A stretch of DNA of 58,670 nt from Bryobacteraceae bacterium. GTDB taxonomy: Bacteria > Acidobacteriota > Terriglobia > Bryobacterales > Bryobacteraceae. A program made the translations under genes and the position numbers. The stretch is taken from positions 1 to 58,670 of the forward strand of contig JAIEPW010000039.1 of the NCBI GenBank assembly GCA_019748195.1, given 5' to 3'. Positions 9,986-11,332 of the stretch are shown in pieces (the stretch's first letter is position 1; each line of letters starts with the position of its first letter). The notes below the pieces were generated by a model, which did no database searches, was not told the origin of the DNA, and saw nothing but the letters and a program-made list of their open reading frames with translations.

Positions 9986-11053
9986 GTGAGAAGACTGATT
10001 CTGCTGGCAGTCGCCGCCGCGCTCGCGGTGGATCTGCTTCCGGCGCAGCGCAAGAAGAAGAAGTCGGAAGAAGAGATCACGCAGACGCTGCCAGCCCTGC
10101 CCGATCCTCCCATCGCGGTTTCGGCGGAGACCAGCAGACTGGAATTCCACGCCGCCGCGCTTTCCGGTAAGGGATTGCTTTCGCGGCAGACCCGCGATGC
10201 GTTGGATGACCTGTTTCGGAAGAATCGCGGCGCCACGATTATCAAGCTGCGCGCCTTCGTTGCCGGAACCGGCGATCTCCGCCGCGTGACCACCATCGTG
10301 TCCGAGGAGTTCTCCCGCCGCAAACTATCTCCGCCCGCGCTCAGCATCGTTCAGGTGGGGGCCCTGCCGATCGAGGGAGCGCAGATCGCCCTGGAATCGG
10401 TTTCCGCGGCCCGGAAGCCGGTGAATCCCGCGGGTGTCGTTTTCTTTTCCGGGAGGGCGGCCCCGACCCCCGGGGAAAGCGTGGACAGACTGTCCCGCAA
10501 CGTCGCGGATTCCGGCGCTACCGTCGTCCGCGTGACCTGTTTTCTCAGCTCTTTGGACTTCTACGATGCCGCCCGCGGCGCTGTTGCCGCCTCTTTCGGG
10601 CCGGCGGACGCCACCTTTGTGCAGTTGCAGCGGTTGCCCCTGGAGCCCATCTGCGAGTGCGAAGCCGTCGGCAGGCTGGAAAAACCTCCGGGCAAGCCTG
10701 TCGAGTTGGTAAACCCTGGCGCGAGCCCGCTTTTTTCGCAATACGCTCTCGTGAACGCGCCCAAGGTAATCCTGACCGGGACCCAGATGATGTTCGGCGC
10801 CGGCGAGAAGGATCTGCGGCTGGGCTTCGACCGCCTTCGTAAAGCGTTGGAATCACAGGGCGGGAGCTTCAGGGATGTAGTTATGTCGAACACTTACCCG
10901 CTGGCCGCCTCGGTGCGGGACCGGATCCGGAGCATCCGGTTCGATTACTACAATTCCGCTAACCCTCCGGCGAGTACGGTTCTTTTGTTTGAAGGACTTC
11001 CGTCGATAGACGCGACGGCCGCGGTGGCCGTGATCGCGGCAGTGCAACCCTGA
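9986..11053 (+). CDS. Secreted protein of three tandem Rid (YjgF/UK114)-fold domains
   Basis: The 355-aa protein begins with a short signal peptide (1-19) and a lysine cluster. Three segments of about 90-105 residues then each repeat the Rid pattern of an amphipathic helix, an F/C-L-S-type strand and a closing P-A-x-S/T-x-V...LP strand: about 44-142, 146-232 and 250-355. RidA is normally a homotrimer of 125-aa chains, so this looks like a single-chain pseudotrimer. By alignment to the closing strand, the catalytic Arg of RidA is replaced in all three units (L119, A209, S330). Enamine/imine deaminase activity is therefore unlikely; binding or a structural role is possible. GTG start. Confidence 0.7.
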   Translation: MRRLILLAVAAALAVDLLPAQRKKKKSEEEITQTLPALPDPPIAVSAETSRLEFHAAALSGKGLLSRQTRDALDDLFRKNRGATIIKLRAFVAGTGDLRRVTTIVSEEFSRRKLSPPALSIVQVGALPIEGAQIALESVSAARKPVNPAGVVFFSGRAAPTPGESVDRLSRNVADSGATVVRVTCFLSSLDFYDAARGAVAASFGPADATFVQLQRLPLEPICECEAVGRLEKPPGKPVELVNPGASPLFSQYALVNAPKVILTGTQMMFGAGEKDLRLGFDRLRKALESQGGSFRDVVMSNTYPLAASVRDRIRSIRFDYYNSANPPASTVLLFEGLPSIDATAAVAVIAAVQP

Positions 11054-11140: not shown

Positions 11141-11332
11141 TTAGGAACCAGCAGTCGCGGCCGCGCTCATCACCGAAGCGACCTTCGAGAAAATCGTCGA
11201 GATCGATGTGGCAACGCCCGGCATGATCGCGCCGGCGGCAACGGCCACGAAACCAGCCATCAAAGCATATTCGATGAGGTCCTGACCGCGGGTGTCCTTC
11301 CAGATACGAAGCTTCCAAACCAGATTCATCAT
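11141..11332 (-). CDS. flp: Flp/Fap-type pilin (type IVb prepilin)
   Basis: The 63-aa prepilin has a short positively charged leader ending in Gly16 and the Flp signature QDLIEYALMAGFVAVAAGAI. Cleavage by a TadV-type prepilin peptidase would follow Gly16, leaving Glu5 of the mature protein. The remaining 47 residues are one hydrophobic helix and a Ser/Ala-rich tail. A good Shine-Dalgarno (GGAGAGGAGAAG) lies upstream and a strong terminator follows, so it is a monocistronic, probably highly expressed gene. No tad secretion genes lie in the window. Confidence 0.9.
   Translation of the reverse strand: MMNLVWKLRIWKDTRGQDLIEYALMAGFVAVAAGAIMPGVATSISTIFSKVASVMSAAATAGS

Follow-up and report, generated by a model that had tools for sequence, protein, structure and literature searches.

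A predicted exported protein with three Rid modules and no catalytic arginine, widespread in its Acidobacteriota family

Rid proteins are guards of PLP enzymes, and the gene described here raises the question of what such a protein would do with three Rid modules in one chain, no catalytic arginine in any of them and an N-terminus of the export type. It lies in a stretch of 58,670 nt from the genome of a soil bacterium of the Bryobacteraceae (GCA_019748195.1, contig JAIEPW010000039.1), referred to throughout as the window. A first-pass annotation of this DNA had stated that no secreted three-in-one Rid protein was known. The three-in-one part of this statement did not stand, as passages of Niehaus et al. 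(2015; PMC4433059) describe 3x-RidA (example EF_0115), a subset of the RidA subfamily having three Rid modules in one chain and presumed to be a covalent trimer; the term "signal peptide" is absent from the main text of that paper. The same passages describe Rid4–Rid7, groups of unknown function in which the arginine is lost and an acidic residue is kept, with Trp in place of the arginine in Rid4 and Rid7. The exported part of the statement held, since an exported triple Rid protein, including an arginine-less form kept across a family, was not encountered in the open-access papers searched. Triple Rid proteins and arginine-less Rid proteins are both already known, and it is the exported arginine-less triple form, which was not found in print, that is apparently new.

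Three Rid modules in one chain

The gene is a single open frame on the forward strand, encoding 355 aa from a GTG start, and as the frame has just 358 codons the N-terminus of the protein is pinned to within three codons. The N-terminal sequence is MRRLILLAVAAALAVDLLPAQRKKKKSEEE, followed by an arm reading TQTLxxPxDPP across the family. The family alignment used here (A1) comprises 96 sequences, namely the window protein and one homologue each from 95 of 96 other genomes, these 97 genomes being part of the 111 matching genomes of the family, of which 14 were not included. Also outside A1 are L107 (G050), a number of second copies or paralogues (L050, L110, L113–L116), and L111 and L112, which gave no match in the search for homologues. 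The features of the gene are as follows, with fractions referring to A1.

9986..11053, + strand: entire gene (355 aa) for a triple Rid protein of the exported type that lacks the catalytic Arg
9986..10045, + strand: signal-peptide-like N-terminus, residues 1–20, MRR and a hydrophobic stretch, from hydropathy and by eye; putative cleavage point
10046..10114, + strand: K/E-rich arm and TQTLxxPxDPP segment, residues 21–43, from the A1 alignment
10115..10411, + strand: Rid module 1, residues 44–142, the best-conserved third (Pfam, outside-family HMM, AlphaFold2)
10421..10678, + strand: Rid module 2, residues 146–231 (A1 profile against solved Rid chains, homologues, AlphaFold2; weak by HMM)
10733..11044, + strand: Rid module 3, residues 250–353 (HMM, homologue thirds, AlphaFold2)
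10340..10342, + strand: Leu119 at the RidA Arg position of module 1, by alignment; Arg in 0/96
10610..10612, + strand: Ala209 at the RidA Arg position of module 2, by alignment; Arg in 3/96
10973..10975, + strand: Ser330 at the RidA Arg position of module 3, by alignment; Arg in 1/96
10274..10285, + strand: D97-x-R99-R100 of module 1, D97, R99 and R100 each 96/96
10538..10540, + strand: Cys185 of module 2, 96/96
10658..10660, + strand: Cys225 of module 2, 95/96, candidate disulfide partner of Cys185
11027..11029, + strand: Ala348 at the acidic position of module 3, Ala in the window protein only (1/96)

When the whole protein was searched against Pfam, PF01042 was matched at 43 bits (cut-off 27.3) in two stretches, the best being residues 83–136. 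This score places the protein in the Rid superfamily, and no family besides PF01042 was found by the Pfam search. The same family was matched at E 0.01 by 94 of the 96 A1 sequences, the window protein included. Searched singly, the thirds of the window protein each fell under the cut-off (23.8 bits, no match and 16.9 bits), while every third of homologue L009 alone exceeds it (34.5, 31.0 and 29.9 bits) and those of homologue L014 gave 40.5, 22.8 and 29.1 bits. An HMM was also built from Rid sequences outside the family (three single Rid proteins of the window's genome and triple Rid proteins of other families, with zero A1 members). At a lax domain threshold of E 1, this model found three stretches in 85 of the 96 A1 sequences, while 9 sequences had two and 2 had a single one, and at more than 5 bits per stretch all three thirds were recovered in 76 of the 96; in the window protein it found three stretches, that of module 2 being weak (3.7 bits).

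The A1 profile matched solved Rid chains, most strongly through module 2 (best E 9.5e-7), and other solved chains through modules 1 and 3. Profile comparison of the modules with one another gave weak matches for modules 1 and 2 (E 2.7e-5, probability 48.6), modules 2 and 3 (E 2.9e-6, probability 75.7) and modules 1 and 3 (E 0.0026, probability 4.7), and the AlphaFold2 secondary-structure list for A1 has the Rid helices and strands three times over when read by eye. Taken together, the Pfam, HMM, A1 profile and AlphaFold2 results confirm the three consecutive Rid modules that the first-pass annotation had described, and the anatomy of the protein is well supported. The P-A-x-S/T ending it had assigned to each of them is present in module 1 (PALS) and module 3 (PAST) but not in module 2 (ADAT). 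Like 3x-RidA, the window family is a tandem fusion; unlike 3x-RidA, it falls outside the RidA subfamily, has lost the arginine from all three modules and has an export-type start.

The window's genome has six further Rid matches above the Pfam cut-off. One protein of this genome, L004 (G000:C152), is a single-module Rid whose start looks hydrophobic by eye and which retains the arginine (PTRTTV), so that an ordinary Rid protein may also be exported by this organism.

Arginine positions, N-terminus and conserved residues

In an alignment with four Rid proteins of the same genome, the column of the RidA arginine is occupied in the window protein by L119, A209 and S330. The Leu, Ala and Ser reported earlier at these positions were thus confirmed, and the loss is common to nearly all homologues, an arginine being found at the three columns in 0, 3 and 1 of the 96 A1 sequences. 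The acidic residue (E/D) of the RidA-type site is kept in 94, 95 and 95 of the 96 in modules 1, 2 and 3, respectively. In these two respects the family resembles Rid4–Rid7, although the window protein itself is without the acidic residue of module 3; unlike those groups it has three fused modules and an export-type start, and unlike Rid4 and Rid7 it does not usually have Trp in place of the arginine. The only NCBIfam match to the window protein was TIGR00004, at 25.7 bits against a cut-off of 106.25, and without the conserved arginine the protein lies outside RidA and the imine-hydrolysing groups Rid1–3. According to passages of two published studies, replacement of the RidA arginine by Ala nearly abolishes activity and the arginine-less Rid4–7 have so far shown none (PMC4433059, PMC8113886). 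As there is no arginine in any of the three modules, imine hydrolysis by the RidA route is not expected of the window protein.

A strongly hydrophobic start, judged on hydropathy alone, was found in 93 of 95 homologues, as against 3 of 29 neighbouring PdxR, PdxT, kinase and phosphatase ORFs, so the secreted-type N-terminus proposed at first pass is supported across the family. The likely −1 position, column 20 of A1, is Ala in 61 of 96 sequences. Predicted export of the window protein across the inner membrane is, from these sequence features, fairly well supported, and its signal peptide is a candidate cleavable one.

The positions invariant in all 96 sequences are P42, G63, L65, Q68, D97, R99, R100, P117, G125, G150, C185 and R216, with Q33 and L35 of the arm segment and R283 near-invariant. 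Columns conserved at 90% or more number 24 of 99 in module 1, 7 of 86 in module 2 and 14 of 104 in module 3. The proposal that three interface pockets had all been repurposed for binding is not borne out by these counts, since conservation this lopsided toward module 1 fits one dominant site better than three equivalent pockets. Exactly two Cys occur past residue 25 in 77 of the 96 A1 proteins. The strands bearing Cys185 and Cys225 in module 2 are presumably sheet neighbours in the Rid topology, and a disulfide between these residues is probably the natural reading of the conserved pair and would be compatible with export. Both Cys are also retained, by eye, in L050, L107 and L110.

Distribution, related triple Rid proteins and gene neighbourhood

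A homologue, mostly full-length, was found in 111 of the 121 sampled genomes of the window's Acidobacteriota family, covering 73 of 76 genera. A profile search of a contig collection confirmed 153 relatives, and all 80 that were listed bear titles of Acidobacteriota groups, most often Bryobacterales, Bryobacteraceae or names of the Solibacter type; zero relatives were confirmed when the same collection was searched with the window protein alone. Across the phylum, 12 of 297 sampled genomes gave a match at 1e-10 (3 within the window's family and 9 partial matches), and as the phylum searches scored no more than six candidates in each genome, absences there carry little weight.

Triple Rid proteins of the exported type also occur elsewhere in the phylum. 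A further one, P0002 (L113:2591-3802), is encoded at another locus in a genome of the same family and has a hydrophobic start and three modules, with the arginine in all three. From 30 loci examined, 16 were inspected further, and 14 of these together with P0002 make up a set (A3) of 15 exported-type triple Rid proteins from ten Acidobacteriota families. Not in A3 are several cases of the same gene reached twice, L216–L218, which belong to the sister type described below (A2), and L219 and L223/L243, whose starts are less hydrophobic (1.07 and 1.57). The arginine is kept in A3 in 14, 14 and 13 of the 15 proteins by module, and in all three modules in 13 of the 15 (L222, L229, L231, L233, L236, L238, L240, L244, L246, L247, L221, L228 and L113:2591-3802). 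Export and the triple form are therefore independent of arginine loss. Homologues that retain the arginine and are cytosolic had been named at first pass as the case that would speak against an exported protein of this kind; arginine-bearing relatives do exist, but those found are of the export type.

The sister family A2, also arginine-less and of the exported type, is co-linear with A1 over 325 columns (E 5.8e-24), while A3 matches the A1 profile over 218 columns with one module out of step. Proteins of A2 and A3 resemble the window family in their three Rid modules, their length of about 355–430 aa and their start, which is hydrophobic or twin-arginine-like. They differ from it in having no conserved Cys (none past residue 30 in 4 of 5 A2 and 10 of 15 A3 proteins), and A3 differs further in keeping the arginine in nearly all modules. 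In two genomes of the window's family an arginine-bearing triple Rid gene is immediately followed by an arginine-less triple of the sister type (L248 (L113) and L249 (L114)).

Genes for SelA-like PLP enzymes were found near three genes for Rid proteins of the exported type:

L238:182-1426, − strand: SelA-like PLP enzyme immediately following the Rid gene (L238/L252), its start twin-arginine-like by eye
L228:2786-4180, + strand: SelA-like PLP enzyme immediately following the Rid gene (L228/L250), its start twin-arginine-like by eye
L253:12574-12999, + strand: start of a SelA-like PLP enzyme, by tblastn alone, about 5.7 kb from the Rid gene and running to the end of the stretch

The Rid protein of the last locus (L230/L253) has the arginine in modules 1 and 3, and its module 2 is weak. 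A tblastn search with the SelA-like enzymes against the remaining loci, most of them short, gave no further genome. Pfam analysis of ten neighbours returned PLP enzymes, amidases and PQQ dehydrogenases, two of each, a MacB-like and a sortilin-like protein, and two proteins without a match. Genes of the PQQ-dehydrogenase type adjoin triple Rid genes in L220 and L239 (Pfam) and in L121 and L127 (by eye).

The neighbourhood of the window family itself was surveyed by tblastn at 95 loci with a homologue; the sequence reached at least 1 kb upstream in 93 of them and at least 600 nt downstream in 94. A divergent PdxR-type regulator lies upstream in 35 of the 95, at an estimated 54–304 nt in 32 of these 35, and a co-directional sugar kinase lies downstream in 40 of the 95, nearly always at an estimated distance of less than 50 nt past the Rid stop; an adjacent pdxR is absent in 60 of the 95 loci and the kinase in 55. 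In a set of named loci that overlaps the 95, the figures are 23 of 80 for pdxR and 27 of 80 for the sugar kinase, and pdxR, pdxS and pdxT occur together in 18 of the 59 named loci having 4 kb upstream. An example of PdxR, one of PdxS and one of PdxT each passed the respective NCBIfam cut-off. The kinase example is 2-keto-3-deoxygluconate (KDG) kinase-like and passed no NCBIfam cut-off. A comparable neighbourhood is described in passages on the chitin-oxidation (ong) cluster, where the gene for OngD, a RidA-family protein of unknown role, lies beside those for a KDG kinase and a PLP enzyme (PMC9537276); unlike the window protein, OngD is a single module of 127 aa, and no export is mentioned in those passages.

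At the window locus neither pdxR nor a KDG-kinase-like gene adjoins the Rid gene. The window's genome has its PdxS and its best PdxR match on contigs other than that of the Rid gene, and the kinase query gave no match in it, so the link to vitamin B6 is not obligatory. Nor is it general to exported triples, as 0 of 42 A2/A3 loci, most with about 1.5 kb per side, have a pdx, sugar-kinase or phosphatase neighbour. Upstream of the window gene lies a methyltransferase gene, and downstream are genes for a mannosyltransferase-like membrane protein and a TPR protein; when the neighbours were sought near homologues none was found, except for window 3307, a distant gene that was matched in two loci. 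A 63-aa ORF at 11141..11332 on the − strand, RGQDLIEYALMAGF, is Flp-type pilin-like by eye and has no Pfam match at 1e-5.

Predicted structure and candidate role

AlphaFold2, run on the 96-row alignment, gave a model of the window protein with pLDDT 94.2 and pTM 0.88. Its best whole-chain structural neighbours are the chorismatases 5ag3 and 5a3k (Z 12.8 and 12.7, 193 and 190 residues aligned, 3.9 and 3.6 Å), the match covering 193 of the 332 residues of 5ag3_B. Cyclic amide hydrolases of the Toblerone fold were among the top Foldseek matches (E 3.5e-10), and for both groups the Foldseek superposition of the window model is poor (TM about 0.25, rmsd about 18–20 Å). Whole-chain Foldseek matches to FBXO22 and PurL were taken to reflect a shared module arrangement only. 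Chorismatases and cyclic amide hydrolases are single chains of three related modules, and the chorismatases, among them FkbO (4bps) and Hyg5 (5a3k/5ag3), resemble the window family in having three Rid-like modules in a single chain. We know of no exported chorismatase. Sequence searches of solved structures found no chorismatase among the matches listed (60 of 74 in the A1 profile search), which does not count against such a kinship. The arginine-bearing A3 protein L231, modelled with pLDDT 91.9 and pTM 0.89, matches chorismatase 5a3k_B as a whole chain (Z 27.0, 284 residues, 3.1 Å). The pseudo-threefold ring that had been proposed for the window protein is thus clean in this arginine-bearing relative and partial in the window model, with its Z of 12.8 over 193 residues.

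The aligned ranges of the single-Rid matches also bear on the ring, as 47 of 48 span residues 31–42 to 353–355 of the window model. In the model the N-terminal hairpin appears to complete module 3, which hints at either exchanged hairpins or a mis-assembled ring. Covariation between the first and last strands was higher within the same module than in the exchanged arrangement for all three modules (2.62 against 2.54, 3.26 against 1.84 and 3.80 against 3.20), a weak signal from 130 sequences (Neff 95) taken without a control. Hairpins that stay in their own modules are on this measure slightly favoured, narrowly so in two of the three.

In the reading that we prefer, and to which we would give an even chance, the window protein is an exported, ligand-binding pseudotrimer of three Rid modules in one chain that does not hydrolyse imines. 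The three modules would act as a covalent Rid trimer, perhaps ring-shaped, and a disulfide in module 2 would hold the exported protein. A small anionic metabolite would be bound at one dominant inter-module site round module 1 (Q68, R89, D97, R99 and R100), and may come from vitamin B6/PLP or 2-keto-3-deoxy-sugar metabolism, to which the neighbourhoods of the relatives point.

The invariant and near-invariant charged residues may instead belong to an enzyme. An exported protein with non-imine chemistry in the style of the chorismatases and cyclic amide hydrolases, one inter-module cleft having become a new active site, would agree with these being the best whole-chain neighbours of the model and with the concentration of D97, R99, R100, R216 and R283; we nevertheless consider it unlikely, as Pfam and NCBIfam return only PF01042 and the sub-threshold TIGR00004 and the global superposition is poor. 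That the protein does deaminate imines, by way of a different residue, is very improbable. The acidic residue is retained in nearly all A1 members in all three modules, and Arg is frequent at 197 (70/96) and 315 (71/96), columns matching RidA Asn88 when the alignments are read by eye, but the published Arg-to-Ala RidA is nearly inactive and Rid4–7 have shown no activity so far in the passages cited above.

Location is the other point on which the readings divide. A Lys-rich stretch straight after a hydrophobic segment is unusual in Sec substrates, and the strong positive charge directly behind the hydrophobic stretch of the window protein, together with common neighbours that are enzymes of cytosolic type, would suit an uncleaved N-terminal helix with the KKKK holding the Rid modules in the cytoplasm by PLP synthase and the sugar kinase. 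We regard such a membrane-anchored form as improbable given the Ala at column 20 in most of the family, the two near-invariant Cys with few others, and the twin-arginine-like starts, by eye, of the sister triples L113 and L114. Less probable again is a silent pseudo-enzyme subunit pairing with arginine-bearing exported Rid proteins. The tandem genes of L113/L248 and L249 would suit such a pairing, but that case concerns the sister type and not the window's family, a second Rid-cluster ORF was found in one locus only (L063) of 21 larger loci, and a covalent trimer would have little need for a partner. A wider and frankly speculative proposal, which we hold to be improbable as it stands, places the exported binding pseudotrimer in an extracytoplasmic imine/PLP economy of the Acidobacteriota, made up of TAT-exported SelA-like enzymes and exported Rid pseudotrimers; the Bryobacterales family of the window would then be a non-catalytic periplasmic binder of a B6 vitamer or a PLP-derived carbonyl, its gene lying beside pdxR–pdxST in many relatives.

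As most genomes of the family keep the arginine-less triple Rid protein, it probably has a job different from imine breakdown, and a protein of this type so widely kept is a concrete case for a role of the Rid fold without imine hydrolysis. The broader set of exported-type triple Rid proteins is arguably more interesting than the window family itself. A few of these share a locus with PLP enzymes that have TAT-like starts, which suggests that imine/enamine chemistry may be managed outside the cytoplasm.
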